This document shows, piece by piece, positions 321 through 18,520 of a DNA stretch of 26,492 nucleotides. Source of the DNA: a virus; IMG/VR virus record IMGVR_UViG_3300034190_004231, positions 1-26,492 of that record; one strand, given 5' to 3'. Positions within the stretch are counted from its first letter, which is position 1, and the number at the start of each line of letters is the position of its first letter. A program made the position numbers and the translations under genes. The notes beneath the pieces were generated by a model. The model saw only the letters and a program-made list of their open reading frames with translations, did not search any database and had not been told where the DNA came from.

Positions 321-1227
321 ATTTTCCGTAGTAATCTCTAATTGTTTCCTCATAAGTATTATATTTTAATCTCACACTAAAGGTGTCAAATAGTTTTGAA
401 CTATCTAACATACCTCTTGGTTTACCTGTAGGACCAAGTTTATTATTTACTACAAAATCATAAGGATAAATTTTTTGTAGAACCTGTCCATCTCTAATTA
501 AATTAGAACTTATATTATAAGTTCCTGGCACCCACTTAGCAATGATATTTTTAACTATTTCAACAAAATCGTCGATATAAATACAATCAGCGGCCTCAAC
601 ATTAACTGGTTTATTTTTTTCAATTTGTCTTTCAATATTCATCCAAATCGGAAATTTAGAGTCACCAATCCCATAAACATGAATAGGTCTCAAAATTATA
701 TCTTTTTCTGTACAGTATGCCTCACTTCTTTTTTTACACCTACCATAATAATCAACAGGATTTGTTGAGTCGGTTTCTTTAATCGCTCCTTCCCAAGTAC
801 CATAAACCATAGAAGAGCTTAGATGTAATATAGGACACTTATGTCTTATTTTTAATGTAGCAAGTCCTTCTACAATAGAATTAAGACAGAAATCTTCATA
901 AAAACTTGATAAAATAGCTTCAGACAAACTTCCACAATTTAAAATTAAATCATAAGTTTTACTATCAAAATAATCATAAGACCAACTTCTAATAACCTTT
1001 GCCTTAGTTTTTTTAACTAAATTCATTCTATATTTAATATTTAAATCTCTATGATATTGTTCTAATTTAGAAATATTACCAACACCTACTTTTGGTCCTC
1101 TATATATTTTTTTATATCCAGGATAAGAATAGCCAAATTTATCTAATATGGTAATTTCATGATTTTTTAATGCATATACTAAATGAGATCCAATGAATCC
1201 TAATCCGCCTGTTATAAGAATTTTCAT
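295..1227 (-). CDS. NAD(P)-dependent epimerase/dehydratase (extended SDR family)
   Basis: Extended short-chain dehydrogenase/reductase of 310 residues, the usual length for nucleotide-sugar epimerases and dehydratases. The N-terminal TGGLGFIGSHL (residues 6-16) is the GxxGxxG dinucleotide-binding loop. Residues 137-139 (SSS) and Y161xxxK165 form the Ser/Tyr/Lys catalytic set. The family usually acts on UDP-, GDP- or dTDP-sugars (4-epimerisation, 4,6-dehydration, reduction); the substrate cannot be read from sequence. It overlaps the upstream radical SAM gene by 4 nt and the downstream bS21 gene by 26 nt. With the DegT aminotransferase in the same operon, an amino-sugar or related tailoring route is the simplest reading. 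Confidence 0.85.
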   Translation of the reverse strand: MKILITGGLGFIGSHLVYALKNHEITILDKFGYSYPGYKKIYRGPKVGVGNISKLEQYHRDLNIKYRMNLVKKTKAKVIRSWSYDYFDSKTYDLILNCGSLSEAILSSFYEDFCLNSIVEGLATLKIRHKCPILHLSSSMVYGTWEGAIKETDSTNPVDYYGRCKKRSEAYCTEKDIILRPIHVYGIGDSKFPIWMNIERQIEKNKPVNVEAADCIYIDDFVEIVKNIIAKWVPGTYNISSNLIRDGQVLQKIYPYDFVVNNKLGPTGKPRGMLDSSKLFDTFSVRLKYNTYEETIRDYYGKYENLRSKQ

Positions 1228-2153
1228 TTAAATTGCCCAAAATTGCTTATAAGATGAAGTTCTTTATCAGTGTAGCCATTCATTTGTTCATCTGTCCAAA
1301 CACTTCTATCATTAGAAATACCCCATAAAGTATTAAGATGTATATTTATATTTTTAATATTTTGTATTGCACTTAAAAAAGATTTCCATTTAAAAAGACA
1401 CTTAGGTTCAATCATACACTTGACAATAACCCAGTTTTTGCTATCTCTATTTGATAAAGCTTTTAATTTGTCATACATTTTACGAAAATTTACGTCTTGT
1501 CTATGAATAGAAATATTTAAATTACTATAATTAGATAAATTTACTAAATAATCAATACTTCTACTTCCATTTGTATTTGTAGTAACTTTAGAATCATTAT
1601 TATGTAAATATTTACAAATTTCAATATAATTACTAAATAATGTTGGTTCTCCTCCCCAAAATGTAAATTTTGCGTTTTGCCATCCTAACTCATAAAATCT
1701 ATCAATTGCTTTAATGATGTCTTCAAACTTTTGTTTACTTTTTTCTTTACTGTGAACAGACGTTGGACAATACCAACAATCAAAGTTGCACTGCTTAAGT
1801 AAATACCAACTAATATATTTATCTTGTTCTATTCCTTTAATTTCTTGCAAAAAAGAGTTTTTATCATTTGATTTTTTTGGTGTAGGCATATCTAAATAGC
1901 ACTTACACCAATCTAAAGGACAGGATATCCATAAATTTTTAGGAAAAATAATTTTGTCGTAAATGTTACCTAAGTAACCTGCACTCTCACAATCTCCACC
2001 TCTTACGTCACCTTTTTCATCAATACTTAAAACATGCTGTAATGCACTGCATTTCCAACCCTTCCAATTATTTAATTTTTGTGTCCTAATTTCTTGCACA
2101 CTGAAAGCTGTATTTACATTATTTATGTCAGTAGCAATAATATTTTTTACCAT
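1224..2153 (-). CDS. Radical SAM enzyme with an N-terminal auxiliary Cys cluster
   Basis: 309 residues. The radical SAM [4Fe-4S] motif CNFDCWYC is at residues 122-129 and the SAM-binding FWGGEP at 165-170. Ahead of the barrel lies a Cys-rich segment: C35, a strand reading LSIDEKGDV, GGDC (C55), LGNIYD, then C78, C83 and C85. This resembles the SPASM/twitch domains that bind auxiliary Fe-S clusters, but those usually follow the barrel, whereas here the segment precedes it. The protein ends soon after the barrel. It lies next to a second radical SAM gene (7-nt overlap), so the two may act in succession or as a complex. Substrate unknown; peptide, sugar and small-molecule acceptors are all possible. 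Confidence 0.8.
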   Translation of the reverse strand: MVKNIIATDINNVNTAFSVQEIRTQKLNNWKGWKCSALQHVLSIDEKGDVRGGDCESAGYLGNIYDKIIFPKNLWISCPLDWCKCYLDMPTPKKSNDKNSFLQEIKGIEQDKYISWYLLKQCNFDCWYCPTSVHSKEKSKQKFEDIIKAIDRFYELGWQNAKFTFWGGEPTLFSNYIEICKYLHNNDSKVTTNTNGSRSIDYLVNLSNYSNLNISIHRQDVNFRKMYDKLKALSNRDSKNWVIVKCMIEPKCLFKWKSFLSAIQNIKNINIHLNTLWGISNDRSVWTDEQMNGYTDKELHLISNFGQFK

Positions 2154-2983
2154 ATTTTTTTATCATATATAACATCAGTATCTTTTTCTCTACACATTGA
2201 ACAAATTGATTCTGGTTTGTCTTTTGTTCTAAACCAATTATTTTTTACAGTTTCTGAGTCATTAAAAGATAACGAAGTGTACATGTTTTTATATTTATCC
2301 CAATCCTCTGGATTTGTAATAGTGTTTAACAAATCATCGAGATGTGCTGTGGGCATACATTTCCATAATTTACCTTTGTATAGCCTTGTACAGTGAGACC
2401 ACATACAAACATTGTGAGCTTTGATATAATCTGAATTAAAAGGTTTAATGCCCTCATCATACATTTTAGCCCAGTTACTCGACATGTTTCTTAGTTCAAA
2501 AGTAAATTTATCTTTTTTAAAAGTTTTTGCAAAAGACACTGTTGGATATTTTATTTCATAACGGGTGTAATCACCTATAAAACTTTTGATATTATCTTTC
2601 AGTAACTTTTCATATCTTTTATTTTTTGAATGAATACTAATTACCAACATACATTTAGTATCATTTAAAACTTGTGCTAAATGTAAATTTTTTTTCAATA
2701 ATAACCCATTACTAAATAATCTAAGATCAGTTTTTGGAAACATCTCTCTTGCCATATAAATTAAAGATGACAAATCTTTATATAATAAAGGTTCTCCGCC
2801 TATTATTTGTAACCTTAAAGGATTAATAAATGGTTTCCAGTTTAGTAAATCTTTTTCTAAAGATTGTTTGTTTTGTTTTGAGCTTGTTACTTTAAGGTTA
2901 GAATATACATTACAATGATCACAAGATAAATTACAGTCTAAAGAAATAGGTATATCTAATAAACGTATATCATACTGTTTCAT
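2147..2983 (-). CDS. Radical SAM enzyme with a SPASM-like C-terminal Cys cluster
   Basis: 278 residues. CNLSCDHC at residues 17-24 ligates the radical SAM [4Fe-4S] cluster and IIGGEP (60-65) is the SAM-binding motif. The C-terminus carries C193, C198, C209, C261 and C264 in a SPASM-like arrangement (strand KGKLWKC, then CxxC), suggesting one auxiliary cluster. Such enzymes often modify peptides, but also sugars and nucleoside-like substrates. The gene overlaps the DegT aminotransferase upstream by 14 nt and the second radical SAM gene downstream by 7 nt. The two radical SAM proteins are clearly different and not a recent duplication. Confidence 0.8.
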   Translation of the reverse strand: MKQYDIRLLDIPISLDCNLSCDHCNVYSNLKVTSSKQNKQSLEKDLLNWKPFINPLRLQIIGGEPLLYKDLSSLIYMAREMFPKTDLRLFSNGLLLKKNLHLAQVLNDTKCMLVISIHSKNKRYEKLLKDNIKSFIGDYTRYEIKYPTVSFAKTFKKDKFTFELRNMSSNWAKMYDEGIKPFNSDYIKAHNVCMWSHCTRLYKGKLWKCMPTAHLDDLLNTITNPEDWDKYKNMYTSLSFNDSETVKNNWFRTKDKPESICSMCREKDTDVIYDKKIW

Positions 2984-4079
2984 TTAATGCTTCAGCTATT
3001 CTATCTAGTTCTTCTTGCTCCATAAAATGATGAGAAGGTAAGTGAATTAAGTTTTCAGTAAATTCTTTAACTCCTGATAAATCTTCTTGTGCTTCAAAAA
3101 AAGAAAAAGAAGACATAGGTTCTTTAAACATCGTTCTTGCCAAGCATTTAATTGAGTGAAGCTTATTAAGGACAAAGGCAACTTGGTCTGAAGGAACAAA
3201 CATTGAGAATCTTTCCCAAATATAATTTTCTCCGGATATAGATTTAAAGGGAAGATTGTTATTATACCAAGTAGCAATTTGATTTCGACGCTCTCGATAC
3301 TCGAATTGCTCATAAAGCTGAATTTCTTTTAAAAGAACGGCACAAGAGGTATTGTCTAAAAAACTTTTAGTGCCATAACCTACTATTTGTTTTTGTTTTG
3401 ATGTTCCATGCGCTTGTATTTCGTATATTCTCTCATGAATATCAGCATGACGAGTCGCAATTCCTCCTCCAGAACCTAACGTGCCTGGTCCTTTTGTAAA
3501 ATCAAAAGAATAACATACTAAATCAGATAGTTGTCCGGGTTTATATTTAATAGGCGCGCCCATGTAAAATGCAGGAGCAGCATCCTCAATTATCTTTATT
3601 TTAGGAAGATACTTTTTAATAGTACTACATAATTCTGGCACGTTTGCCATTGTGCCAAAATTGTGTATAATTATAAGCGCATTTGCATAATTATTTTTAA
3701 TTTTTGCCCATTTTTTTAATGCCTCTACAGAAATATTACCTGTTTCATCAATGTCAATAAATTTTAAACGCCTATTCATAAATCGAACTGCATTTGCTAC
3801 ACCTCTCCATCCATAGGCAGGAACAAGAATAGTATCACCTTCTTTTGTTAAGGCGTGAACAGCTATTTGTAGTGAATCTGTGCCACAATTTGTAAAATTC
3901 CAATAAGGAATATTAGATAACTCTACGCATTTATTTGTTAATTCTTTCTGTATAGGAGCAATATCACGACCATCTTCTGCTTGATATGGGTAATCCATAG
4001 CATTAGAGATAGCTCGAAGATAATCAACCTTATGTTTTTCTACACGTTGTCGATGAGGTATAAAAGCAATTGATTTCAT
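2970..4079 (-). CDS. DegT/DnrJ/EryC1/StrS-family PLP aminotransferase
   Basis: 369 residues, typical for sugar aminotransferases of fold type I. Visible marks are NCGTDSLQIA (residues 64-73; phosphate-binding GT), VPAYGW (86-91), IEDAAPAF (164-171; D166 pairs with the PLP ring nitrogen) and SFDFTKGPGTLGSGGG (191-206) with the probable PLP lysine K196. The family typically transaminates keto-sugars of nucleotide-sugar pathways, and a few members act as dehydratases without a lysine; here the lysine is present. It sits between the PP-loop gene (1 nt shared at 4079) and the radical SAM gene (14-nt overlap). Confidence 0.85.
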   Translation of the reverse strand: MKSIAFIPHRQRVEKHKVDYLRAISNAMDYPYQAEDGRDIAPIQKELTNKCVELSNIPYWNFTNCGTDSLQIAVHALTKEGDTILVPAYGWRGVANAVRFMNRRLKFIDIDETGNISVEALKKWAKIKNNYANALIIIHNFGTMANVPELCSTIKKYLPKIKIIEDAAPAFYMGAPIKYKPGQLSDLVCYSFDFTKGPGTLGSGGGIATRHADIHERIYEIQAHGTSKQKQIVGYGTKSFLDNTSCAVLLKEIQLYEQFEYRERRNQIATWYNNNLPFKSISGENYIWERFSMFVPSDQVAFVLNKLHSIKCLARTMFKEPMSSFSFFEAQEDLSGVKEFTENLIHLPSHHFMEQEELDRIAEALNETV

Positions 4080-5086
4080 TAACTTAATTCTATGTCTGCA
4101 AACTTAATATACTTATTAGCATAAGAATGAACAAGTTTATTACCAAGAGTAGAATTCTTTAAAAGATCAATATACTTTCTTTTAAGATTAATATTTTTTG
4201 TTTCTTTCAATAGCATTTTTGTTTTAACACTCATTAAAAAATGAGCACTTCCATAGTAAAGTTTACTATTTGCTTGATACGGAGCATCTGGGGCAATTGG
4301 GATATCTCTAATCACACCTATTTTTGCTTTTTCAAATTTTGTTTTATCTGTTATATTATTCATCTTGCAAAAATTTTTGAGCATATAGGTTTGTTTAACA
4401 TCTAGTTTTGGAAGATCAGATGATGAAAAAAATAATTCAATATTTGTTAGGTTTGAATATGGTCTGTATACTCCATCTGTATAAATTGCAAACCATTTAT
4501 TATCCCTAAAATCAAGACTCGGGGTTGTTTCGGCAAATAAATTACAAAAATTATCTTTATTATCTAAAATTTGATAGTCGTGGAAGTATCTTAGAACTGT
4601 TGTACCTCTTTTAGCAAACCACTCATCGTTTAAAATAGGTTCAAAATACTTTCCCCCATAGTCAGCTACAGTAAACTTTGTTTTTGGCAAAATCTTGCGT
4701 AATTCATTATAATAAGGAATAGTATAATTATTTAACTCTATATTACTTGAATTATTAAAATTATCGTCTAAGGCATATCTATAACAATGAATTTCATCTA
4801 CATGAATTTTATTTTTTATAAAGGCATTGAGCATTGTAGTAGAGTCAGCCCCGCCACTATACATTATTCTAATGTAAGAATAAGCATCTCTAAGCTGTTC
4901 ACATCTTAATTTAATAAGGTGTTCTAAAGACTCTGTAGGCTCTTGTTCCCAATATACATCAGAAAAAAACTCGGGAGAATACGCGTTAAAAGAAATTTTA
5001 GACATCTTACCGTTAGCGGCTTGTATTGCTTGAAATTTATTATCATAAGCAATACCGTTTACTTCCCAATGAAATAAATCAGACAT
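4079..5086 (-). CDS. PP-loop ATP pyrophosphatase-like protein
   Basis: 335 residues. IMYSGGADSTTML (about 74-86) is the P-loop-like SGGxDS motif of the N-type ATP pyrophosphatases (asparagine synthetase B, ExsB/QueC, GMP synthetase, TilS and WbpG-type amidotransferases). These enzymes adenylate a carbonyl or carboxyl and replace the AMP with ammonia or another nucleophile. The rest does not match one subfamily by eye, and there is no glutaminase domain, so ammonia would come from a partner or a free pool. The gene overlaps the upstream thioredoxin-like gene by 8 nt and is followed at once by the aminotransferase. Amide or amidine formation on the operon's substrate is a reasonable inference. 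Confidence 0.7.
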   Translation of the reverse strand: MSDLFHWEVNGIAYDNKFQAIQAANGKMSKISFNAYSPEFFSDVYWEQEPTESLEHLIKLRCEQLRDAYSYIRIMYSGGADSTTMLNAFIKNKIHVDEIHCYRYALDDNFNNSSNIELNNYTIPYYNELRKILPKTKFTVADYGGKYFEPILNDEWFAKRGTTVLRYFHDYQILDNKDNFCNLFAETTPSLDFRDNKWFAIYTDGVYRPYSNLTNIELFFSSSDLPKLDVKQTYMLKNFCKMNNITDKTKFEKAKIGVIRDIPIAPDAPYQANSKLYYGSAHFLMSVKTKMLLKETKNINLKRKYIDLLKNSTLGNKLVHSYANKYIKFADIELS

Positions 5087-7524: not shown

Positions 7525-7525
7525 A

Positions 7526-8602: not shown

Positions 8603-8628
8603 AGTCCCACTACTTATGTAGTGGGACT
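8603..8628. terminator. Strong hairpin after the DUF2589 gene (terminator or processing site)
   Basis: Perfect 11-bp stem AGTCCCACTAC (8603-8613) and GTAGTGGGACT (8618-8628) with the four-base loop TTAT, just 5 nt after the stop codon. Only TTC follows the last T of the stem, so it lacks a good U-tract. It may stabilise the 3' end, slow polymerase or be an RNase site rather than a classic terminator. It also lies 20 nt before the uvsE start. Confidence 0.55.
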
Positions 8629-8647
8629 TCTAATCACTGGAAAACCA

Positions 8648-9733
8648 ATGTCTTATTTCAATCAAACATCGACCGACTGGCGATTGTCTCAGTGTTGTCA
8701 ATTTCACGATAAAAAATTAGCGAAACAATTTAATTTTGGAACAACTACAAAAACATATGCACTAAAAGAAGGAGGTAAAAAGCGCGTACAAGAAAAAGCT
8801 TTACATAATGTTAATAGACTTTACCTTATACTTGAACATTATTTTTCGAAACAACCTCGAAATCTTCGTTCTTTTCGTATATCTTCTGAGATGTTTCCTT
8901 GTTATACTTTGGATTTCACTCAAGACTGGTATAAAGAAATTTGGGGAGAAATCTCAGAGACTTTGCATAAGTGTGGAGAGATAGCTAAGTATCATGAGAT
9001 TCGTCTTTCAGTACATCCAGGTCAGTACACTGTTTTAGGTAGTCCAAAAGCTAATGTTGTAGAAAACTCTATCAAAGATTTAGAGTACCACGCCTTATAC
9101 GGTAAACTTATGGGACTACCTGCGGAAGATTTTACTATGAACATTCATTTACAAGGATTATACGGAGGCAAACATATAGATGGAATTAAGAGATTTGCAA
9201 GCAATTTCCAATATCTCTCAGACTACGCACAAAAAACTCTCTCAGTTGAAAACGAAGATAAGCCCAATGGTTATGACATCGAACACACACTCGAACTCGC
9301 AGCAAGAATCCCAACAAGAACATGCCTTGACATACACCATTACGCATGCCACAGGATGCGGCAAAATGAAAAAGTCAAAAACTCACAAGGTAAAGTTGTC
9401 AACAGAAAAATTAGGGACGAAGTTAGACATATTAGTGTAAACGATGACTTTTTTAAAGAAGCAGTAAAAACTTGGAAAGGTGTGCGACCACTCTTTCATA
9501 AATCTCAATCTTTTCCAATTGATAATGAAAATTATTGGATGAAACCTAATGCCCATTCAGATATGTATCACGACGAGGAATTAATGTCTAATGCGATTCC
9601 TATGCTTGAATATGCTGATTTTGAAATAGAAGCTAAACATAAAGAGGTTGCTGTTAATCATTTTTATGATTATATTAATGATGAACAAGATTTAGCGGGT
9701 GAAATGTTACAAACAAAAACGTTTGCTAATTAA
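8648..9733 (+). CDS. uvsE: UV damage endonuclease, UvsE/UVDE type
   Basis: 361 residues from the ATG at 8648; a GTG at 8621 lies inside the hairpin and is less likely. A TIM-barrel metal-dependent endonuclease that nicks DNA 5' of UV photoproducts. Family marks: NVNRLYLILEHY, SFRISSEMFPCYT, LSVHPGQYTVLGS, NIHLQGLYGGK, LSVENEDK and LDIHHYACH (metal-ligand Glu and His). Length is in the family range. Its last 27 nt overlap the convergent SGNH gene. A phage would use it to repair its genome in sunlit water. Confidence 0.9.
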   Translation: MSYFNQTSTDWRLSQCCQFHDKKLAKQFNFGTTTKTYALKEGGKKRVQEKALHNVNRLYLILEHYFSKQPRNLRSFRISSEMFPCYTLDFTQDWYKEIWGEISETLHKCGEIAKYHEIRLSVHPGQYTVLGSPKANVVENSIKDLEYHALYGKLMGLPAEDFTMNIHLQGLYGGKHIDGIKRFASNFQYLSDYAQKTLSVENEDKPNGYDIEHTLELAARIPTRTCLDIHHYACHRMRQNEKVKNSQGKVVNRKIRDEVRHISVNDDFFKEAVKTWKGVRPLFHKSQSFPIDNENYWMKPNAHSDMYHDEELMSNAIPMLEYADFEIEAKHKEVAVNHFYDYINDEQDLAGEMLQTKTFAN

Positions 9734-10360
9734 TTCTGCTGCTTTTAAATGAGAGCTAGGCCCTGCATGAGAACCATCTTTTGCAGGGTCTTTATGCTTT
9801 TCTAAATCAAAATGAATTGGAATGTGGGAATTAGTTAAATTTTTTAAATTAGGGTATAGATGAGGAAAACAGGATAGATGTATCTGCTCTATTCCAGCTC
9901 TTTGGCAAAGTATAATTTGTTTAGCAACTGCTCCTTCCCATAATTCTGTGACTACTTTCTGATCTGAGAAATATAACATTCCTGCTGCGTGCCATGCCGC
10001 TTGATGTTGTTTTTCGTGTTTTCTTTTATTACCTAAAATTTGTTCTGAAAGTATCCAGTTTCTATAATACTTTTCATTTTTTACTATATGATTAGCTATA
10101 ATAAAACCTTGCCACATATTTTTTCTAAAGTCCCAAACTTTCCAACGATATTCACTGGTATGTCCTATGATAATTAAATCAGGTTTTAACTTGACAGCTT
10201 CTTCAACTTGATTTAAAATAAGATATTCTGAAGCACCACTTTGAGCAAGATTTTTAATTTTCGCATCAAATTTTTTTGCTAAAATGTGCGCATAAACTTG
10301 GTCTTGATTATCAAGACCTTCTCCCTGCGTAAATGAGTCACCACAAGATACTATGAGCAT
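9707..10360 (-). CDS. SGNH/GDSL hydrolase, lone minus-strand gene in the plus-strand cluster
   Basis: 217 residues from the ATG at 10360; the frame is open further upstream to 10522, but family homology begins at MLIVSCGDSFTQGEG. Block I GDSFT gives nucleophile S9. NLAQSGASEY is block II, IIIGHTSEY sits where block III usually has GxN, and KDGSHAGPSSH supplies the Asp195/His198 of block V. The family are esterases, lipases or acyltransferases of sugars and lipids. No signal peptide, so it acts in the cytoplasm. The gene overlaps uvsE tail-to-tail (27 bp) and the next SGNH gene head-to-head (8 bp; start codons at the ends of ATGAGCAT). No Shine-Dalgarno is visible. Confidence 0.75.
   Translation of the reverse strand: MLIVSCGDSFTQGEGLDNQDQVYAHILAKKFDAKIKNLAQSGASEYLILNQVEEAVKLKPDLIIIGHTSEYRWKVWDFRKNMWQGFIIANHIVKNEKYYRNWILSEQILGNKRKHEKQHQAAWHAAGMLYFSDQKVVTELWEGAVAKQIILCQRAGIEQIHLSCFPHLYPNLKNLTNSHIPIHFDLEKHKDPAKDGSHAGPSSHLKAAELISKRFCL
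10300..10318. promoter_or_regulatory. 19-bp perfect palindrome upstream of the divergent SGNH starts
   Basis: GGTCTTGATTATCAAGACC is a palindrome with 9-bp arms around one central base at 10309. It ends 34 bp before the ATG at 10353 and lies within the minus-strand SGNH coding region (codons for GLDNQDQ). As DNA it looks like a dimeric operator; as RNA the loop would be only 3 nt. Chance within coding sequence cannot be excluded. Confidence 0.3.
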
Positions 10361-10949
10361 TGCAGAAGATAATATTGTTGTTGTAGGAAATTCTTGGTCA
10401 ATACCAAGTGATGAAGCACCAAAACCTGCATTTTCTTTATTAAACCTTACTAATCGTTGGGAGCATCCAGGCATTACTTTGGATGCACAATCAGAGTATA
10501 TCATAAAAAATAAACTTGTCAAAGCTTTTAAAGTAATTTGGCTGATTGGGCATCATCATCGTGCTGACCCAAAAGGAAACGGAGATTACTTAGTCCCTTA
10601 TGATTGGGGTGAGGGTAATATTTGGGGCAAAATGACTCGTGATATTTGGTTTAAGAAATTTACAAAAATGCCTTGGTATTGGCGAACTAATGCACTTTTC
10701 GTAAAGGCAGCTGTTGAAGGTTTTACTCCTGATAATCTTTTGTTAATTCCTATTTATCGACCAAATATTTTAGAACATAATATGTTACAACACAATTCTT
10801 GTATTTGGTGGGAATATATGCGAGATCTTGCTAAAAATTATTCTGATGGTAGGGGTCATATTAATCAAGTAGGACATACTATTTTTGCTATGAAACTTCG
10901 AGAGGAGATTGAAAACAGGTGGAAGATTTCATTGACAGTAGATGGGTAG
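10353..10949 (+). CDS. SGNH-hydrolase-like protein, divergent from its neighbour
   Basis: 198 residues. Block I is present as VVVGNSWS (residues 9-16, candidate nucleophile S14, with Asn in place of the usual Asp). IGHHHRADP lies in the block III position, and SDGRGHINQVGH (about 164-175) is the block V region with D165/H169. It is therefore a diverged SGNH member, possibly an acyl esterase or acyltransferase. The start overlaps the divergent SGNH start by 8 bp. The 3' end overlaps the oxygenase gene by 31 nt. No ribosome-binding site is visible, so the exact start is less certain than the frame. Confidence 0.65.
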   Translation: MSIAEDNIVVVGNSWSIPSDEAPKPAFSLLNLTNRWEHPGITLDAQSEYIIKNKLVKAFKVIWLIGHHHRADPKGNGDYLVPYDWGEGNIWGKMTRDIWFKKFTKMPWYWRTNALFVKAAVEGFTPDNLLLIPIYRPNILEHNMLQHNSCIWWEYMRDLAKNYSDGRGHINQVGHTIFAMKLREEIENRWKISLTVDG

Positions 10950-11476
10950 ATGCCATCGACGTAGGATTTAATGAATCTATCGCTAAAAATGCTCCTAAAA
11001 TTGTGAAAGAATGTGAGAAAAATTTAAAATTCTTTGGTAATCAATGGTATTCAGATTTTGCAGGTTACAAAGCAATTTTATTAAAACCAGGAGAAGGTTA
11101 TGAATGGCATTTTGATAATATGGATTTTATTAATGGGGTTCTTAGCTGTCCCCGGCCTAATAGATATTGGAGTCAGCTTACTTACTTAACTGATGGACAA
11201 CCTTTTGAAATCGGTGATTGGAATCCTTTAGGAGAGAGGGTTGAACAAACTGAATTTAGTGCACCAATTCCTAATAAAATACTCGCCCGAGTACATCCGA
11301 AACCTGGTGTTACTGTTGTTTTTCCTTGCTTTATGGTTCATAGAATTAGGCCAGTGGTTATTAATAGAAGGTGGGCAATAGTTAGTTTTATTGATAACCC
11401 TAATTATAAAAAAATGAACAAGAAAACTTTAGAATTAATTTTTAAAAGGTATTTTAATGAATATAATGGGTTTTAG
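10919..11476 (+). CDS. 2OG-Fe(II) oxygenase-like hydroxylase
   Basis: 185 residues, GTG start with AGGAG about 11 nt upstream. The double-stranded beta-helix iron site is visible: GYEWHFDNMD (H64, D66), then FPCFMVHRIRPV (H141) and NRRWAIVSF (R150/R151, for 2-oxoglutarate). This is the PKHD/prolyl-4-hydroxylase-like arrangement. It overlaps the SGNH gene upstream (31 nt) and the carbamoyltransferase downstream (20 nt). A hydroxyl group added by such an enzyme could be the acceptor for carbamoylation by the next gene product; that link is inference from adjacency. Confidence 0.75.
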   Translation: MEDFIDSRWVDAIDVGFNESIAKNAPKIVKECEKNLKFFGNQWYSDFAGYKAILLKPGEGYEWHFDNMDFINGVLSCPRPNRYWSQLTYLTDGQPFEIGDWNPLGERVEQTEFSAPIPNKILARVHPKPGVTVVFPCFMVHRIRPVVINRRWAIVSFIDNPNYKKMNKKTLELIFKRYFNEYNGF

Positions 11477-12830
11477 CGCGTATCATCATGATTCAGCAGC
11501 TGTAAATATTTTTAACAATTTAATTGTTGGTGGATCTCAAGAGGAAAGATTTACCCGCAAAAAGTATGATAATAATTTTCCTATTAATACGTTTCGTTGG
11601 TTAAGAAGCCAAAAAGAGCAGACTGATGTTGTTGCTTTTTATGAAAAAAGAGATTTTGTTGAAAGACAAAACATTAAAAGAGAAATTAAAAAAGCACTTC
11701 CAGGCAAATTTGATATTGAATTTTTTGAGCATCATGACTGCCATGCCATGAGTTCTATTTGTACAACTGATTGGGATAGGTGTGCAGTTATGGTTGTTGA
11801 TTCTATGGGAGGTAAATATGCTACTAGTCTTGGTATTTTTGAAGATGATAAAATAACTTGGCTAAAAAGATTTGAATATCCAAACAGTCTAGGATTATTT
11901 TACTCAACCGTAACTCGTTTTTTAGGTTTTAAGCCTTTATCTGATGAAGAAAAGGTCATGTCTGCTGCGGCATATGGCGAGCCAAAGTGGGCTAAATATG
12001 CAAAAGAAAAAATTATTAACACAGAATTAGGAGAATATACTTTACTTCAAGATCTACGTAGAGGTATTGGAGTAGGTGCCTTAGATTGGGATGTTGCTAA
12101 AAGTGCTCAAGATATCTTACAAGAATGCTTAATTAATCTTGCAAGTTGGTTACATTCAGAAACTGGTTCTTCTAAATTAGCATATGCTGGCGGGGTAGCT
12201 TTAAATTGTGTTGCTAACACGGAATTAGCAAGGTATACTGGTTTTAAAGAGATTGCGATTCAACCAGCTGCGGGAGATGCAGGATGTGCTTTAGGAGCGG
12301 CTGCTTTAGTACAAAGACCTCTTTGGGAAGGACCCTACATTGGTTATAATGACTCTTTAAATCAGAACCCAGAAGAAATAGCACACAGAATAATACAAGG
12401 GGAAGTTGTGCCCGTTTTAAATGGTAAAGCTGAATTTGGTCCTCGCGCTCTTGGTAATAGAAGTATTTTATGTTTACCAACTGAACTTAACATTTCAAAA
12501 CTTAACAACATTAAAAAAAGAATTAATGATACTTGGAGACCATATGCTCCTATTTGTCTTGACTCTGTTGCTGAGGATTATTTTGATATCTACATTCCTT
12601 CATACGACATGTTATTTGTTGCTTTTTCAGAGACTGATTTATTTAGAACTCATGACGATACAGCAAGACTTCAACTTGTCAATTCTTCAAAAAATGGATT
12701 TTTAGGAAAAATTCTAGAAATTACTACTGCACATAATCATCCTATTTTAATCAATACAAGTTTAAATGTTAAGGGTAAGCCTATCGTAAATTCTGTTGAT
12801 GATTTCAGAAATGAAATGAAAGTTTTTTAA
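11457..12830 (+). CDS. NodU/CmcH-family carbamoyltransferase
   Basis: 457 residues. Family marks: GFSAYHHDSAAV (about 5-16) and QEERFTRKKYD (28-38), EHHDCHAM with metal-binding His (about 91-98), AYAGGVALNC (about 241-250), KAEFGPRALGNRSIL (about 323-337) and ILINTSLNVKGKPIV near the end. The family transfers a carbamoyl group from carbamoyl phosphate, via carbamoyl-adenylate, to hydroxyls of antibiotics, Nod factors and, in some phages, 5-hydroxymethylcytosine. It is shorter than many members (about 550 or more), but both halves are represented. The acceptor here is unknown. Confidence 0.85.
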   Translation: MNIMGFSAYHHDSAAVNIFNNLIVGGSQEERFTRKKYDNNFPINTFRWLRSQKEQTDVVAFYEKRDFVERQNIKREIKKALPGKFDIEFFEHHDCHAMSSICTTDWDRCAVMVVDSMGGKYATSLGIFEDDKITWLKRFEYPNSLGLFYSTVTRFLGFKPLSDEEKVMSAAAYGEPKWAKYAKEKIINTELGEYTLLQDLRRGIGVGALDWDVAKSAQDILQECLINLASWLHSETGSSKLAYAGGVALNCVANTELARYTGFKEIAIQPAAGDAGCALGAAALVQRPLWEGPYIGYNDSLNQNPEEIAHRIIQGEVVPVLNGKAEFGPRALGNRSILCLPTELNISKLNNIKKRINDTWRPYAPICLDSVAEDYFDIYIPSYDMLFVAFSETDLFRTHDDTARLQLVNSSKNGFLGKILEITTAHNHPILINTSLNVKGKPIVNSVDDFRNEMKVF

Positions 12831-13495
12831 TGTGGGAACATAATAAAAAATACGATTATACATATGATATGCGTGTTGATACGTTACCAACGGGTAGAAC
12901 TTATTTTACTCCTGATGGAGACTATCCAAGTATTACTACTATTTTGGGAAAAACAGCTAATAATGTTTGGTTGCAGGCTTGGAAAGATAAGGTAGGAGAA
13001 GAAGAAGCAGCACGTATTTCAAAAGAAGCGACAGATCGTGGAACTTTAATCCATGAATTTGCAGAACGCCACTTTAATAATGAAGACATTATAAATGATT
13101 TAGTACAGGAATCATCTGATGTAATACAAATGACGCGTGACTTAATTAAAATTACTGAATCAGGTGTTGAAGAAATTTGGGGACAAGAACAGGTTTTGTG
13201 GAGTAACAAGTATAAATACGCTGGTAGATGTGATATGGTGGGTACTTGGAAAGGTAAACCTTCTATTATTGATTTCAAAACATCTAAAAAAACAAAATAC
13301 ATAAAACAAATTAAAGATTATTTTATACAATGTTGCGCATATGCAGTAGCACACAATGAGTTGTATGGAACAGGAATTAAAAACGTTGTTATTCTTATTA
13401 CCGTAGATGGCAAAGAGGCACAATGTTTTGAAACAAGTGCTGTTCCTTTTTTGCCTGAACTTAAAAATAGGCGTAATCAATATGACTTATTGTAA
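12830..13495 (+). CDS. PD-(D/E)XK exonuclease, RecB/Cas4-like nuclease fold
   Basis: 221 residues. RGTLIHEFAERH (70-81; H75), YAGRCDMVG (130-138; D135), SIIDFKTSKK (145-154; D148 and K150) and QCCAYAVAH (167-175; Q and Y) are the ordered motifs of the RecB-type nuclease domain. There is no helicase domain and no Fe-S cysteine set like that of Cas4. Phage relatives act in recombination, DNA end processing or host DNA degradation. Its ATG begins in the last base of the carbamoyltransferase stop (TAATG), so it is co-translated with tailoring enzymes. Confidence 0.8.
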   Translation: MWEHNKKYDYTYDMRVDTLPTGRTYFTPDGDYPSITTILGKTANNVWLQAWKDKVGEEEAARISKEATDRGTLIHEFAERHFNNEDIINDLVQESSDVIQMTRDLIKITESGVEEIWGQEQVLWSNKYKYAGRCDMVGTWKGKPSIIDFKTSKKTKYIKQIKDYFIQCCAYAVAHNELYGTGIKNVVILITVDGKEAQCFETSAVPFLPELKNRRNQYDLL

Positions 13496-13982
13496 ACAAA
13501 TTCCTTTGCCTATTCTTGAAGCTGATATAGAAAAAATTAAATTTTTTTATAAAAATGGTTACAATTTGTTTACTGAAAGACAGTTTAGTAATCCATATTG
13601 GAAATCTTTTGATTTAATTACAAACTCAAAAATTTCTCCTGTTTCTCAAAACCTAAAATGTATTGCTTCTTGGTTAGATTTTATTCAAAATCATACAGGC
13701 ATAAAAAATATAAAAAATTGTTACATTTCCGTTTTAAAACCAAAATGCGCCATTCCTTGGCATACTGATGCTGAAGGAGAAAAATTTACTTCTTCTTTTA
13801 TCACGTCAATTTCTACCGATAAAAGCTTTTTAGAAGTTGATAATATTAAATATACTTATAAGAATGGTTATAGCTATATTTTCAGAGCTGGTTTTAGTCA
13901 TAGGGTGTTAAACTTAAATGATGATTTAAGAATCACTTTATGTACTACGCCCGAAGAAAATCCTTACAGGAAGGAAAAATAA
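13482..13982 (+). CDS. 2OG-Fe(II) oxygenase / Asp-Asn hydroxylase-like protein
   Basis: 166 residues from the ATG at 13482; the frame is open further upstream, but that part lies inside the nuclease gene. IPWHTDAEG (91-99) gives the HxD pair H94/D96, FRAGFSHRVLN (134-144) the distal H140, and DLRITLCTTP (148-157) R150. This is the jelly-roll iron site of 2OG oxygenases, closest in look to aspartyl/asparaginyl beta-hydroxylase-type proteins. Second such protein in the cluster and clearly different from the one at 10919. Confidence 0.65.
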   Translation: MTYCKQIPLPILEADIEKIKFFYKNGYNLFTERQFSNPYWKSFDLITNSKISPVSQNLKCIASWLDFIQNHTGIKNIKNCYISVLKPKCAIPWHTDAEGEKFTSSFITSISTDKSFLEVDNIKYTYKNGYSYIFRAGFSHRVLNLNDDLRITLCTTPEENPYRKEK

Positions 13983-14093
13983 ATGTTAGATTGGTATCAT
14001 GAATTAGTTTTTCACTTTAAATTCTGGCTTAAAAAGAGAAAGTTAAAAAAACTTGATCCTTATATATACGAGGTAAATAAAAATGATGAATGA
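13983..14093 (+). CDS. Very short basic protein (36 residues)
   Basis: MLDWYHELVFHFKFWLKKRK followed by an acidic end NKNDE. It follows the oxygenase stop directly, with AAGGAAAAA as ribosome-binding site, and overlaps the next gene by 11 nt. The aromatic first half and basic second half suggest a peripheral membrane or amphipathic helix. No family known. Confidence 0.45.
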   Translation: MLDWYHELVFHFKFWLKKRKLKKLDPYIYEVNKNDE

Positions 14094-14241
14094 CTATAGG
14101 TTTAGTTTAGAAGGATTAAAAGAAACTGTAGCAAGATTACTAAAAGAAAATGATGAACTTAGAATGAAACTGCGAGTATACGAAGAAAACGTAGGTAAAA
14201 TTGCCCTTAATCCAAAGAGTAAACATGAGCAAAAGAATTAA
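14083..14241 (+). CDS. Short coiled-coil protein (52 residues)
   Basis: A leucine-heptad helix (FSLEGLKETVARLLKENDEL, residues 7-26) and a basic end. GAGGT lies 8 nt before the double ATG. It overlaps genes on both sides (11 and 17 nt). Probably a small oligomeric adaptor; function unknown. Confidence 0.5.
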   Translation: MMNDYRFSLEGLKETVARLLKENDELRMKLRVYEENVGKIALNPKSKHEQKN

Positions 14242-14419
14242 TAAGCATTTAAAGCAGTTCTTTGATGAAAAACCCTTGACTGATTGGGAAAAAAATTTTA
14301 TACTTGGTTGTATAAAAGCTCAAGATAATTCTTGGTACGGGCAACTTACTGTTAAACAGTGGAATAAAATTAAATCAATCAAGGAAAAATATGATGATAA
14401 TAATTTGGGAGACTGTTGA
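14225..14419 (+). CDS. Small unknown protein (64 residues)
   Basis: Starts MSKRINKHLKQFFDEK, basic at the N-terminus and acidic at the end (KYDDNNLGDC). The ATG at 14225 is chosen because no better start exists upstream and the overlap with the previous gene is then 17 nt. No family recognised. Confidence 0.5.
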   Translation: MSKRINKHLKQFFDEKPLTDWEKNFILGCIKAQDNSWYGQLTVKQWNKIKSIKEKYDDNNLGDC

Positions 14420-14422
14420 GTA

Positions 14423-14653
14423 GTGTGGCAAATTATTATTATTATGATGGTTGCTCTAGGAGCTGAAACAGATGCCATTGAAATTTCTCATAATAATGGT
14501 AAGCCTTTACGCTTTGAGTCTCAAGCGATTTGTTATGCGCATGTTGAGGCTAATTTAGAAAAACTTAAATCTTTTGCTTCTTCACAATTCGATGGTGCCC
14601 CTGTTAAGTCAATAACTTGTGTAAAAACCCCGTTTGGAATTAATAATGTATGA
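14423..14653 (+). CDS. Small exported or membrane-anchored protein, GTG start
   Basis: 76 residues. The N-terminal MWQIIIIMMVALGAETDA reads as a short signal or anchor, followed by a mixed domain with two cysteines (C37 and about C68) that could form a disulfide in the periplasm. GTG start with GGGAG about 11 nt upstream. Overlaps the thermonuclease gene by 8 nt. Unknown function. Confidence 0.5.
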   Translation: MWQIIIIMMVALGAETDAIEISHNNGKPLRFESQAICYAHVEANLEKLKSFASSQFDGAPVKSITCVKTPFGINNV

Positions 14654-15074
14654 GTATAAATGTAGAGTTATTAAAGTGGTTGATGGCGATACTATTGATG
14701 TTGACATTGACCTTGGCTTTAATATTACCTTGTCTAATCAACGCATTAGATTACAAGGTGTTGACACTCCAGAATCGCGTACAAGAGACTTGGAAGAAAA
14801 AAAGTTTGGATTACTTGCGAAAGAAGTTGTTGAGTCCTATTGTCCCGTAGATAAATTAATCACTCTTAAAACTACTAAAGACGAAAGAGGTAAGTTTGGT
14901 CGTATCTTAGGAGATTTTATTGTCTATGATGGAACAACAGACTCATGGAAGATGCTTGGTGAAATTTTAATTAATAATCATTTTGCTGTTGCATATCATG
15001 GACAATCAAAAGAAGAGATTAAAGAAGCTCATTTTTTCAATAGAGAAAAAGTTAGAGGACTTCTCAAAGAATGA
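14646..15074 (+). CDS. Thermonuclease / staphylococcal nuclease-like protein
   Basis: 142 residues from the ATG at 14646. SNase fold with VVDGDTIDVDID (11-22; D15 as metal ligand), RIRLQGVDTPE (33-43; R35, D40, E43) and RGKFGRILGD (81-90; R86). All positions equivalent to the catalytic set of staphylococcal nuclease are present, so it is likely active as a calcium-dependent nuclease. There is no signal peptide, unlike secreted SNases. In a lytic phage a role in host DNA breakdown is plausible. It overlaps the next oxygenase gene by 4 nt. Confidence 0.85.
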   Translation: MYEYKCRVIKVVDGDTIDVDIDLGFNITLSNQRIRLQGVDTPESRTRDLEEKKFGLLAKEVVESYCPVDKLITLKTTKDERGKFGRILGDFIVYDGTTDSWKMLGEILINNHFAVAYHGQSKEEIKEAHFFNREKVRGLLKE

Positions 15075-15718
15075 AAACAAAAGTAAATTTTATTTCTCCG
15101 TTTGACGTGTCCATAATGAAAGCGAAGTGCCCTCAAAATTACATTGACATGTTAATTGAGACAAGCGGTCAAATATTTAAAGATGACGATTTGTGTGTAA
15201 GACTCGATGCATCTGATGGTTTAGTAGGTAATGTAACTAATGAGGTGCATGTTCCTCAACTTCCTGCTATTAAGAAAATTAATTACTGGATTGAAGATTT
15301 AGCTATTAAATATGCTCGTAAAGATTTTCTTAAAAAGCAAAAAGAATATTCTGAATTACAGAAAAAACATTTTTCAAAAGATCCCCATGTTCAAATTACA
15401 TCTGAATGGATTGTAAGGATGAACCCAGGAGATTTTAATCCGGCTCATTTTCATACTAATTGTCATCTTTCCGGGTTACTGTATTTAAAAATTCCTGATG
15501 GTTTAGAGCGTGACGCCGGAGGTAACTTGCATTTTTTACACGGTAATCCTGCTACTTTTTACACAAATCAATATCAAATTACTCCAAAAGTAGGTGATAC
15601 TTACTTATGGCCCTCTTGGTTACAACATTTTGTCTATCCTTATAAATGTGAAGGTGAACGATGGGTTATGCCATTTAATTTAATTGTTGCTCATGGGGAT
15701 GAAACAACAGTAATATGA
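15071..15718 (+). CDS. Phage-type 2OG-Fe(II) oxygenase (TIGR02466-like)
   Basis: 215 residues. The pattern SEWIVRMNPGDFNPAHFHTN, then SGLLYLKIPDG (134-144) and a late LWPSWLQHFVYPYKCEGERW matches the 2OG oxygenase family common in marine phages. Candidate iron ligands are H126/H128 and H186, and R197 would bind 2-oxoglutarate. Members have unknown substrates. It overlaps genes on both sides by 4 nt. It is the third oxygenase-fold protein of the cluster and unlike the other two in sequence. Confidence 0.75.
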   Translation: MKTKVNFISPFDVSIMKAKCPQNYIDMLIETSGQIFKDDDLCVRLDASDGLVGNVTNEVHVPQLPAIKKINYWIEDLAIKYARKDFLKKQKEYSELQKKHFSKDPHVQITSEWIVRMNPGDFNPAHFHTNCHLSGLLYLKIPDGLERDAGGNLHFLHGNPATFYTNQYQITPKVGDTYLWPSWLQHFVYPYKCEGERWVMPFNLIVAHGDETTVI

Positions 15719-16551
15719 ATAAAAATCGTTATACTATACATAGAGAAAAAGCATCTCAAGAACAACTTGAGAACATGCAATATTTGATTAAAGAGCATTT
15801 AGATGTAAATAGAGAAGAAGACAAAAAATATAAAATTCAAAGAAAATATGTACTTGTTACAGGAGATTCGTGGGCGCAAGGCGAACTTGATGAAAGTAAA
15901 GAATCTGATTGGTCTGCAACTCATTCTGTTAGTGGATATTTAGCCTCTTTGTTTCCTGAGAGATACGTTGCTGTTGGATTTCCAAATCCTGGATGGGATG
16001 ATTTTGAAAGCATATACGTGATTGAACAAATGCAACATATGTTTGATTACGTTGTATTTTTTAAAACATGTGGATTACGTTCTATTATGTTACAAGACCA
16101 CCCTGGGAGAGAAGACTTTGGTATCACCGAAGAAGAATTTGATGTTAAAAATGTTATCGGCCAAGGCAGAATCATAAATAATATTGTTTATGAGATGTTA
16201 AAAGAATGGGAATCAAAATTAATTTTAATTGGTGGTCTTAATAAAATTACTAACGACGGCTCTAAATTAAATACTATTCTTACTATCCCAAGTGTGCTAG
16301 AAAGATACGATTCTAGTGTTGAAGATGTAGATGTTTTTGGTTGGGAAGATATGTGGGAATTTTATAAACCTAGAGTTAAGGGAAATAAAGATTACCAAAA
16401 TTCACTTTTAGAAGTAATGGACAATTTCGGTAAGAAAAAAGAATATATGGAAGCAAATCCTCATCATTATTTTCCTGATGGAAAACATCCAAATAAAGTA
16501 TTGCATGAAGATTTAGCTAAATACCTTGGAGAGTATTTATGGACGCAATAA
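15715..16551 (+). CDS. SGNH-hydrolase-like protein, third in the cluster
   Basis: 278 residues. After a charged N-terminal helix region, VLVTGDSWAQGE (46-57) is block I with S52; GFPNPGWDDF is a plausible block II, VVFFKTCGLRS is in block III position, and HHYFPDGKHPN supplies D255/H258 as the catalytic Asp-His pair. It has no signal peptide. It overlaps the oxygenase upstream (4 nt) and the next gene (13 nt). Likely an ester hydrolase or acyltransferase; substrate unknown. Confidence 0.7.
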   Translation: MNKNRYTIHREKASQEQLENMQYLIKEHLDVNREEDKKYKIQRKYVLVTGDSWAQGELDESKESDWSATHSVSGYLASLFPERYVAVGFPNPGWDDFESIYVIEQMQHMFDYVVFFKTCGLRSIMLQDHPGREDFGITEEEFDVKNVIGQGRIINNIVYEMLKEWESKLILIGGLNKITNDGSKLNTILTIPSVLERYDSSVEDVDVFGWEDMWEFYKPRVKGNKDYQNSLLEVMDNFGKKKEYMEANPHHYFPDGKHPNKVLHEDLAKYLGEYLWTQ

Positions 16552-17021
16552 TTTTTGGTGGAGGTCCTGAAAGGGACTTAGTTAAAGGAGTTCCTCTATC
16601 TCTATTTACTGTTAGTTGTAACTTATCTCATACAAATGCAAATGTTTATTTTGCACAGGATGACCAAATAATTAATCAGTTAATGCGGAAAAAAGTTAAA
16701 GCGCTTTTTTTGACATTTAGAATGTACGAAAAGTATTCAGATAATCCAAATGCTGGTTTTTTCTTACTTGATGAGGATAAATTGTGGAACAAACCTCAAG
16801 GATTGTCTACGGGATTACTTGCAATTTGCACTATGAACAATTGGGAATTTGATAAAATTTATTTAAGCGGATTTTCTTTTGATAAACCTAATTCAAGTAT
16901 TGATAAACTTGGATCAGTTATGTCTTCAATAGACATGAGAAAACTCTGTGTAATATCTGAAACTTTTGAACATGATATAATTCAATCAGTTACAAAAAAT
17001 GATTTCTATAAACTAACTTAA
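16539..17021 (+). CDS. Sialyltransferase/DUF115-like Rossmann protein
   Basis: 160 residues. The N-terminal IIFGGGPERDL resembles the GxGPS loop of GT42-type sialyltransferases and DUF115 proteins; AQDDQIIN is in the place of the following D-containing motif, and GLSTGLLAIC with FDKIYLSGFSFD corresponds to the conserved STG and strand-loop that close the CMP-binding site. It is short for a full transferase (usually 250 or more residues), so it could be a minimal domain or a relative with another role. The match is to pattern only. Confidence 0.45.
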   Translation: MDAIIFGGGPERDLVKGVPLSLFTVSCNLSHTNANVYFAQDDQIINQLMRKKVKALFLTFRMYEKYSDNPNAGFFLLDEDKLWNKPQGLSTGLLAICTMNNWEFDKIYLSGFSFDKPNSSIDKLGSVMSSIDMRKLCVISETFEHDIIQSVTKNDFYKLT

Positions 17022-17023
17022 CG

Positions 17024-17860
17024 ATGATTGCTGTTATCCTAAATGACACATCTCATTATCATCATGGTTGTAAAAAGGTAATTGAATATTTAATTTCTGA
17101 TCTTCAGAGTTGTGGTTATACAGATATTAAATTAGTTGGTCAAGATATCAAAAAAATACAAGAAGCAAGGTCTTTAGGTTATGAGGCAGACTTAGTTGTT
17201 TTAAATGGTGAAGGAACTATGCATAGCACTGCCATTAAAAATCGAGAGACTCCTATTGCTTTACTTGAAAATCTTTCTGCAGCAAATAACAGAGGTATTA
17301 AAACTGCGCTTATAAACACTGTCTGGCAAAACATGGAGATAGATGATTTTACAGCGTACGCACTTGAAAACTCTTATGTTTCTTGCCGAGAGTCTTATTC
17401 TCATAATGAACTTAAACTAATTAACAAGGACTGTGAAATCCATCTTGACTTAAGTTATTTTGTAAAAGTTCCATTTTTTGAAACAAATCAATCAGATAAA
17501 CTAATAGGTAAATTTTTTGGAAGAACTGATTCTAAACAAAAAAATTTAGATATTTTTGAAGAAGATTGGGACACTATCGTTAATAAACTCCGTAAAGCAA
17601 ATTGGTTTATTACCGGCAGACATCATGAGTTATACGCTGCGTGTAAAGCAAGATGTCCTTTTACTGTCTTGGAGGGTAATACTTGGAAAAATAAAGGTTT
17701 ATTAAATACTGCGGGAGTAACTATCCCATCTTTTCCAACTTTTCTCGATGAAGAATCTTTTGACGCTGCTATTACTGAGTGTCAAAAATTATTATCAGAG
17801 TATGAAAAACTTTTTAATTGGATGGAAAATCAACCAAAATTTTCCTTGAAAGGAAAATAA
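17024..17860 (+). CDS. Polysaccharide pyruvyl transferase-like protein
   Basis: 278 residues. VVLNGEGTMHS (58-68), VSCRESYSHNEL (119-130), WFITGRHHELYAAC (194-207) and TVLEGNTWKNKG (214-225) match the ordered motifs of the PF04230 family, which in cellular members transfers pyruvate from PEP to sugar hydroxyls of exopolysaccharides and cell-wall polymers (CsaB and PssK types). It follows the sialyltransferase-like gene by 2 nt and is followed at once by the methyltransferase. It strongly suggests that the cluster's acceptor is a glycan. Confidence 0.7.
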   Translation: MIAVILNDTSHYHHGCKKVIEYLISDLQSCGYTDIKLVGQDIKKIQEARSLGYEADLVVLNGEGTMHSTAIKNRETPIALLENLSAANNRGIKTALINTVWQNMEIDDFTAYALENSYVSCRESYSHNELKLINKDCEIHLDLSYFVKVPFFETNQSDKLIGKFFGRTDSKQKNLDIFEEDWDTIVNKLRKANWFITGRHHELYAACKARCPFTVLEGNTWKNKGLLNTAGVTIPSFPTFLDEESFDAAITECQKLLSEYEKLFNWMENQPKFSLKGK

Positions 17861-18520
17861 ATGAATCGAGAGTTAGATTTATATAATGCTGTTTTATCAT
17901 TAGAACTAGGCCCACAACCTTATTATCTTCATTATGGTTTATTATATGACAATAATTCTATAATCCAAAATCAACAACGCTCAACTGATTTACTAATAGA
18001 ACACCTTATTAAAGGACAAAAATTATTAGAGATAGGCGGAGGATCAGGATATACTGCTAAACAATTAAGAGATATTGGTTATGATGTTACTAGTATTGAT
18101 AAAAAAGAATATCCTAATTCTTTAGGAGTAACTATAGCAGATTTTAATACTATGATACTTGAATCCGAATTTTATGATATAATTTTATTTCAAGAATCTG
18201 CACAATATTTTAATTTTAATACAACTTTTCATAAATGTTATACAGCGTTAAAATCAGGAGGACAATTATTAGTTTTAGATGAGTTTTCTACTGACTTTTT
18301 AAATACTTGCCCTATACCTTTTTATCATTCAATAGATTTAACAAAAGAAGCATCTCCTTCTGTTGTACTATTACTTAATACGATTAAAAAACATAAACAA
18401 ACATTATTAAAAAATTTTTCTAATTCTGAATTAGAGCAGATGATTTATGAATTAAATTTTCGTAAATTAGAATATGATACTAATAAATATAAATATATGT
18501 TAATAGATATAAGAAAATAA
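17861..18520 (+). CDS. Class I SAM-dependent methyltransferase
   Basis: 219 residues. LLEIGGGSGYTAKQL (55-69) is motif I and VTSID (residues 76-80) motif II; a later SGGQLLVLDEF strand-loop corresponds to the post-motif region. There is no DNA target domain or catalytic NPPY/PC motif, so DNA N6-adenine or C5-cytosine methylation is unlikely. O-, C- or N-methylation of a small molecule or glycan fits better. It follows the pyruvyl transferase without a gap and closes the tailoring cluster; a short gap with AAGGAAAAG then leads to the endolysin. Confidence 0.75.
   Translation: MNRELDLYNAVLSLELGPQPYYLHYGLLYDNNSIIQNQQRSTDLLIEHLIKGQKLLEIGGGSGYTAKQLRDIGYDVTSIDKKEYPNSLGVTIADFNTMILESEFYDIILFQESAQYFNFNTTFHKCYTALKSGGQLLVLDEFSTDFLNTCPIPFYHSIDLTKEASPSVVLLLNTIKKHKQTLLKNFSNSELEQMIYELNFRKLEYDTNKYKYMLIDIRK

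Follow-up and report, generated by a model that had tools for sequence, protein, structure and literature searches.

The linear virus record IMGVR_UViG_3300034190_004231 of IMG/VR, analyzed here over its whole length of 26,492 bp (the window), carries between positions 9707 and 18520 a region rich in putative tailoring enzymes, at the heart of which are a 2-oxoglutarate (2OG)-Fe(II) oxygenase (OG1), an O-carbamoyltransferase (Carb) and two SGNH-like proteins (SGNH1 and SGNH2). The original prediction described this region as ten closely packed enzyme genes. Open reading frames (ORFs) exist for all ten. They are, however, not contiguous, being interrupted by a PD-(D/E)XK exonuclease (12830..13495, plus strand; phrog_298), an SNase-like nuclease (14634..15074, plus strand; phrog_452) and small ORFs (13983-14653), and SGNH1 is encoded on the minus strand. 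The exonuclease, a phage DNA-metabolism gene inside the block, is probably outside the tailoring function and is used here as a synteny marker.

Five of the ten products, Carb, OG1, OG2, OG3 and a methyltransferase, pass the Pfam cut-offs, which upholds the predicted NodU/CmcH carbamoyltransferase, three 2OG-Fe(II) oxygenases and class I methyltransferase. SGNH1 and the polysaccharide pyruvyl transferase-like protein (PyrT) score under the cut-off, and the Pfam search of the window proteins gave no match for SGNH2, SGNH3 or the DUF115/sialyltransferase-like ORF. The genes of the cluster are under purifying selection, with ratios of nonsynonymous to synonymous substitution rates (dN/dS) of 0.02-0.17 in close pairs.

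Enzymes of the tailoring region

Carb (11457..12830, plus strand; phrog_1601) has both the Carbam_trans_N and the Carbam_trans_C domain, each far above the Pfam cut-off (PF02543, 5e-40; PF16861, 6e-32). In an alignment of 56 Carb proteins the HHxxHA motif (H92/H93/H96), D115, D274 and K36 are nearly invariant, and the metal and active-site residues of the Kae1-like domain (HHxxH and two Asp) as well as the GxxEFGPRALGxRS motif are kept in 51-56 of the 56. By its sequence Carb is a member of the NodU/TobZ/GdmN-type O-carbamoyltransferases, and the transfer of carbamoyl to an acceptor hydroxyl is predicted. Its core partner OG1 (10919..11476, plus strand) matches PF13640 above the cut-off, and the HxD motif (H64/D66), H141 and R151 are invariant in 55 of 55 sequences. 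OG2 (13482..13982, plus strand) is an oxygenase of the aspartyl/asparaginyl beta-hydroxylase type (PF05118 above cut-off), in which H119, D121, H165 and R175 (numbered from the ORF start at 13407) are kept in relatives; translation more likely starts at the ATG at 13482, the upstream extension being probably an annotation artefact. The metal ligands are conserved in all three oxygenases, in OG3 as HxH.

SGNH1 (9707..10363, minus strand) is a GDSL/SGNH-fold protein with the block I Ser in GDSF and a block V DxxH motif (DGSH). The TTG-started ORF extends to 10522, and in alignments it is the ATG at 10363 that matches the relatives, so that the longer form is probably an annotation artefact. PF13472 matches SGNH1 under the cut-off (E 2.4e-6 to 3.5e-6). 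At the family level, a profile of 34 SGNH1 relatives matched GDSL structures in PDB (4rsh, 1.1e-6; TesA, ~1e-3), Lipase_GDSL_2 was matched by 18 of the 34, and Ser10, Arg73 and His199 are invariant. SGNH2 (10353..10949, plus strand; GNSW ... GRGHIN) was recognized by structure modelling. The AlphaFold model built from 30 relatives (predicted local distance difference test score, pLDDT, 90.9) superimposes on TesA with a Z score of 12.2 and a root-mean-square deviation of 3.2 across 148 residues (VIA-align), its best Foldseek match in PDB is the SGNH domain of the O-acetyltransferase OatA (E 4.8e-3), and Ser14 and His169 are invariant in the 30 relatives. The model thus supports an SGNH fold with catalytic Ser and His. 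SGNH1 and SGNH2 are arranged head-to-head with start codons overlapping by 11 bp, which leaves no room for an intergenic promoter. This arrangement, a minus-strand gene nested inside a plus-strand operon, is kept in most relatives. The third predicted SGNH hydrolase, SGNH3 (15715..16551, plus strand), is less certain: the GDSW and D..HPN motifs (GDSW ... DGKHPN in the window) are invariant in all relatives, the Lipase_GDSL match is weak (7 of 14 family members, the best at 0.0081), and the family profile found no match in PDB. For SGNH1 and SGNH3 no tblastn match was obtained in the annotated phage collection, and family-level relatives were detected through profiles only.

The remaining accessory genes are all on the plus strand. 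OG3 (15071..15718; phrog_81) matches PF13759 above the cut-off, and the class I S-adenosylmethionine (SAM) methyltransferase (17861..18520) matches PF08241 at 2.3e-7. For PyrT (17024..17860) the predicted similarity to PF04230 was detected (E 1.4e-3), although the score of 19.1 bits is below the cut-off of 25.3; PyrT may at most be a distant relative of that family. The short DUF115/GT42 sialyltransferase-like protein (16539..17021) has no Pfam match, and its profile weakly matches the GT42 lipooligosaccharide alpha-2,3-sialyltransferase (E 0.0071). Its AlphaFold model (pLDDT 37.5) was unusable and was not interpreted. Three assignments are therefore weak, namely those of SGNH3, PyrT and this DUF115-like ORF.

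Conserved core and exchangeable cassettes

Loci were compared by iterated profiles, 11 of them from near relatives and 80 from an alignment-based scan. The order SGNH1 (minus strand)/SGNH2/OG1/Carb/exonuclease/OG2 is kept across viral loci with a Carb identity of 48-96%, the limit being about 48-52%. Among the 41 clade loci with sufficient DNA upstream of Carb, OG1 is present in 40, SGNH2 in 33 and SGNH1 in 32; among the 29 with sufficient downstream DNA, 28 have the exonuclease and 17 have OG2, other members being rare. Of 58 clade loci, 48 have OG1 immediately beside Carb, as against 11.4 expected from shuffling. The SGNH pair has been lost, with OG1 and Carb retained, in L028, L031, L034, L045 and others. 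In addition to the core block, two loci have a second carbamoyltransferase gene downstream of it (L043:13362 and L050:9938).

The second half of the region behaves differently. Between the SNase gene and the lysozyme gene the loci form a nested series: SGNH3-DUF115 in L002 and L003, OG3-DUF115 in L005, SGNH3-DUF115-PyrT in L010 and OG3-SGNH3-DUF115-PyrT-methyltransferase in the window. OG3 occurs in few relatives, L005 being the only close one with it at its window position, the PyrT relative (93% identical) was found in L010 only, and the methyltransferase was found at its window position in none of the relatives' loci. SGNH3 is swapped, and 14 of the 41 clade loci have a homologue of it upstream of SGNH1 or OG1. 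This interval is thus a site of cassette exchange beside a fixed core, and the genes of OG3, SGNH3, the sialyltransferase-like protein, PyrT and the methyltransferase are patchy cassettes. In view of such patchiness a single fixed ten-enzyme pathway was rejected. What stands of the dedicated pathway originally proposed is the presence of tailoring enzymes, their co-occurrence beyond chance and a sugar-related neighbourhood, with the conserved unit reduced to SGNH1, SGNH2, OG1, Carb and OG2. The gene-neighbourhood search suggested as a check had the same divided outcome, the core being kept together and the accessory genes not.

The window clade has full support in the Carb tree and stands apart from the lipopolysaccharide (LPS)-type carbamoyltransferases of cyanophages and pelagiphages. 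Outside this clade, 12 of 25 distant viral loci have an SGNH gene immediately beside Carb, whereas 2.78 were expected from shuffled positions and none of 5000 shuffles reached the observed number. Since these loci are partly related, the statistic is indicative only. The same adjacency is found in nine of the best 80 bacterial/archaeal-bin loci (L114-L117, L119-L121, L137 and L153). Some of these nine may lie on contigs of viral origin; in the Carb tree, for instance, L119 and the viral locus L094 are nearly identical. We tentatively propose, at somewhat less than even probability, that one or more SGNH proteins, a short carbamoyltransferase of the NodU type and in some cases a PF13640 oxygenase constitute an undescribed two- or three-enzyme unit which recurs in unrelated phages and some bacteria and performs a specific coupled modification, such as O-carbamoylation after a deacylation or hydroxylation step. 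L081, L082, L090 and L091 have three to five consecutive radical SAM genes upstream of Carb; an SGNH gene accompanies this array in L081, L082 and L090, and in L082 and L090 the array goes along with the SGNH-Carb adjacency. L081 is part of a 523,836-bp record.

Sugar-gene surroundings and the putative acceptor

The left arm of the window has a set of sugar-related genes on the minus strand (295-5086), members of which are likewise swapped among relatives. It comprises an NDP-sugar (nucleoside diphosphate sugar) epimerase/dehydratase-like protein (295..1227; PF01370, 3.3e-14; phrog_540), for which substrate supply is the probable role, two radical SAM proteins (1224..2153 and 2147..2983; PF04055, 3e-12 and 2.1e-7), a DegT/DnrJ/EryC1 sugar aminotransferase (2970..4079; PF01041, 4e-36) resembling WbpE and perosamine synthetase-like structures, and a PP-loop ATPase-like protein (4079..5086) recognized by its SGGADST motif. 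The last has no match in Pfam, NCBIfam or PDB; homologues are found in L023, L068, L072 and L073. Deazaguanine DNA modification by a QueE/QueC-like left arm was considered and rejected, as both radical SAM proteins score far under the QueE cut-offs and no family match was obtained for the PP-loop protein. The relatives' contigs carry DegT, WbqC, hexapeptide transferase and GT2-like genes, together with serine hydroxymethyltransferase and further SGNH-like proteins. The phage-encoded serine hydroxymethyltransferase (PF00464, E 4e-145) lies in the relatives' sugar clusters (L109:18330-19469, with homologous ORFs in G001 and G002).

Sugar-nucleotide and tailoring genes are thus found together in a variable region of the phage genome, as in an LPS-modification cluster, and the catalytic residues of OG1, OG2, Carb and the SGNH proteins are intact. 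We give about an even chance to the reading that the region, in a marine tailed phage, is a modular set of genes for glycan tailoring, the core of which hydroxylates, O-carbamoylates and trims or transfers acyl groups on a surface glycan during infection. The conservation of the core alongside cassette variation, the kinship of Carb with O-carbamoyltransferases of sugars and natural products (novobiocin, GdmN and TobZ) and the SGNH-Carb pairs outside the clade also speak for it. OG1 would hydroxylate the acceptor, and Carb would move a carbamoyl group, derived from carbamoyl phosphate and ATP via carbamoyl-adenylate as in TobZ, onto an acceptor hydroxyl. SGNH1 and SGNH2 might act on the acyl groups of this acceptor, either stripping or transferring them. 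The accessory enzymes (OG2, OG3, SGNH3 and the sialyltransferase-like, pyruvyl- and methyltransferase proteins), mostly inserted as cassettes, would diversify the decoration among related phages, and the amino-sugar genes of the left arm (DegT, epimerase and radical SAMs) probably contribute to acceptor synthesis. The acceptor would most likely be the surface polysaccharide of the infected cell, in which case its decoration could alter phage receptors and lead to superinfection exclusion.

The gene families of the well-supported members, the conserved core, the cassette variation, the purifying selection and the sugar context are observed; the step order, the acceptor and the biological role are inferred. 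Several observations weigh against such a glycan-tailoring role. No glycosyltransferase was detected above the cut-off on the window, and the GT2 profile exceeds it in just one of 43 related records, so that the connection with polysaccharide assembly depends on the other sugar genes. The window, a fragment of 26 kb, also lacks structural genes. The block III Asn is absent from SGNH1, SGNH2 and SGNH3, a Thr/His...Arg pattern being aligned instead; the three are SGNH-like proteins with an altered oxyanion region, and their activity is not assured. Finally, the bacterial SGNH-Carb pairs occur in mixed contexts as well, including one with an AMP-binding/thioesterase gene, and the pair is therefore not exclusively a polysaccharide module.

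Since most genes of the second half are patchy and swapped among near-identical relatives, and DNA-metabolism genes are interspersed with them, everything beyond OG1-Carb could be a patchwork of independent auxiliary genes in a hypervariable region, acting on separate acceptors with no joint pathway. This is unlikely in view of the SGNH1/SGNH2/OG1/Carb order held across large divergence and of SGNH adjoining Carb also in distant phages and in bacteria; moreover, the exchanged genes are mostly of tailoring types. It is quite unlikely that the acceptor is, as in natural-product clusters, a small molecule or an NDP-sugar or lipid-like metabolite and no surface polymer. The closest solved structures to Carb are indeed antibiotic O-carbamoyltransferases (novobiocin, GdmN and TobZ), and SGNH-Carb pairs are found in actinomycetes, one of them adjoining AMP-binding, acyl carrier protein and thioesterase genes. 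However, no nonribosomal peptide synthetase, polyketide synthase or export genes were recognized in the window or in the relatives read, where sugar genes predominate.

Instead of the host surface, the targets could be virion proteins or virion glycans, of the tail or capsid. The cluster lies upstream of the lysozyme gene, compatible with middle or late expression, and 2OG oxygenases of the Asp/Asn and prolyl types are able to hydroxylate proteins. No structural gene is linked to the cluster, however, and the neighbouring enzymes are of the polysaccharide type, which makes virion targets very unlikely. Carbamoylation of hydroxymethylated phage DNA bases, with a 2OG oxygenase providing the hydroxyl, is disfavoured as highly improbable, even though a phage carbamoyltransferase acting on 5-hydroxymethylcytosine (5hmC) DNA is known (PMC8670742) and shares its family with Carb. 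The Carb of Bacteroides phage BF494P1 is located near dCMP hydroxymethylases. In the tree it stands beside the window clade, but its branch is very long and the support (86/63) weak, and this position was not used as evidence either way. In contrast to the 5hmC system, no dCMP hydroxymethylase companion was found in the window clade: PF00303 (thymidylate synthase/dCMP hydroxymethylase) is present in 0 of its 21 records, all of which are fragments, and only two distant large records carry one. The 2OG oxygenases of the window match families other than Tet/JBP, and their surroundings are sugar genes. Similarly, the carbamoyltransferases of unmodified contigs are flanked by glycosyltransferases rather than by thymidylate synthases (PMC8670742).

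Related systems, phage kinship and neighbouring genes

Carbamoyltransferases, 2OG oxygenases and LPS/sugar clusters are already known together in marine T4-like phages. LPS/sugar gene clusters have been described in the T4-like cyanophages P-SSM2, S-SSM7 and S-SM2 (PMC3037559), and for such phage LPS genes a change of the O-chain or surface against coinfection or superinfection has been proposed (PMC7029224). In P-SSM2 a carbamoyltransferase is immediately followed by nucleotidyltransferases, a sugar kinase, phosphoheptose isomerase, an epimerase and a phytanoyl-CoA (2OG) dioxygenase. Its carbamoyltransferase is, however, on another branch of the Carb tree, and no SGNH1/SGNH2/OG1/Carb block was seen in this phage. 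S-SCSM1 (PMC9602691), also T4-like, has a carbamoyltransferase, several 2OG-Fe(II) oxygenases (PF13640/PF13759, families shared with the window), GDP-sugar genes and glycosyltransferases in a single stretch; unlike the window, it has a fucose/mannose pathway and no SGNH protein among the annotated products. By analogy, the same logic in T4-like phages with a carbamoyltransferase inside their LPS clusters would support glycan tailoring by the window region. The cultured pelagiphage Mosig (EXVC030M), whose gene set speaks for the same reading, groups DegT, radical SAMs, Carb, a methyltransferase, two Asp/Arg hydroxylases, an epimerase, a nitroreductase and an SGNH1-like protein, and HTVC008M has a glycosyltransferase, a methyltransferase, Carb, UDP-glucose dehydrogenase and a 2OG oxygenase; both differ from the window in Carb lineage and gene order. 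The Mosig genome announcement is silent on the genes of its sugar cluster. Carb shares conserved residues, in addition to the family, with the TobZ, GdmN and novobiocin enzymes, although it is ~100-250 residues shorter.

The original statement that no system with this gene set had been described holds for the exact set, whereas clusters with Carb, 2OG oxygenase and LPS genes are described or deposited for P-SSM2, S-SCSM1, HTVC008M and Mosig. In the literature searched, no phage paper combined SGNH with a carbamoyltransferase; neither the exact gene set nor the conserved and recurrent OG1-Carb-SGNH core appears to have been described. If the core proteins are a coupled enzyme system, they offer a compact, testable entry point to the sugar clusters of ocean phages, which are large and uncharacterised, and raise the questions which carbamoylated glycan results and whether competing phages are excluded by it. 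The comparison shows that in the evolution of such sugar clusters the core stays fixed and the decoration enzymes are exchangeable; it also extends their range beyond T4-like cyanophages and pelagiphages.

The phage type of the window itself is inferred from synteny. The DnaB-like helicase and NAD-dependent ligase of the relatives (the ligase in G002, G004, G005 and G006) have their best matches, at 30-34%, in ~115-kb Vibrio phages, which we take to be T5-like. A T4-like phage was considered and dropped: gp23 was found in only 2 of 12 records, both large and distant, and T4 late-promoter motifs occur at chance frequency. The T4-like precedents are hence an analogy of content, not of kinship.

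A gene for a UvdE-type UV-damage endonuclease (8621-9733) directly precedes SGNH1 in the window and in the closest relatives, and is absent from the wider clade. Before it, at 7514-8598, are two DUF2589 proteins (PF11655) side by side, with no PHROG match; the pair is also present in L001 and L020, whereas other close relatives, L003 and L004 among them, lack it. On the other side of the region, a short Na/Pi-cotransporter-like protein (PF02690) is encoded at 19018-19494; in L010 (4519-5511) and L011 (1691-2683) its place is taken by another membrane protein, of 330 aa. The lysozyme gene is followed at 19538-20285 by overlapping genes for a small membrane protein and a lipoprotein, resembling an Rz/Rz1 spanin pair. 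A nitroreductase-family protein (PF00881) is encoded at 24990-25760 and is found also in L009, L010 and the cluster of pelagiphage Mosig.

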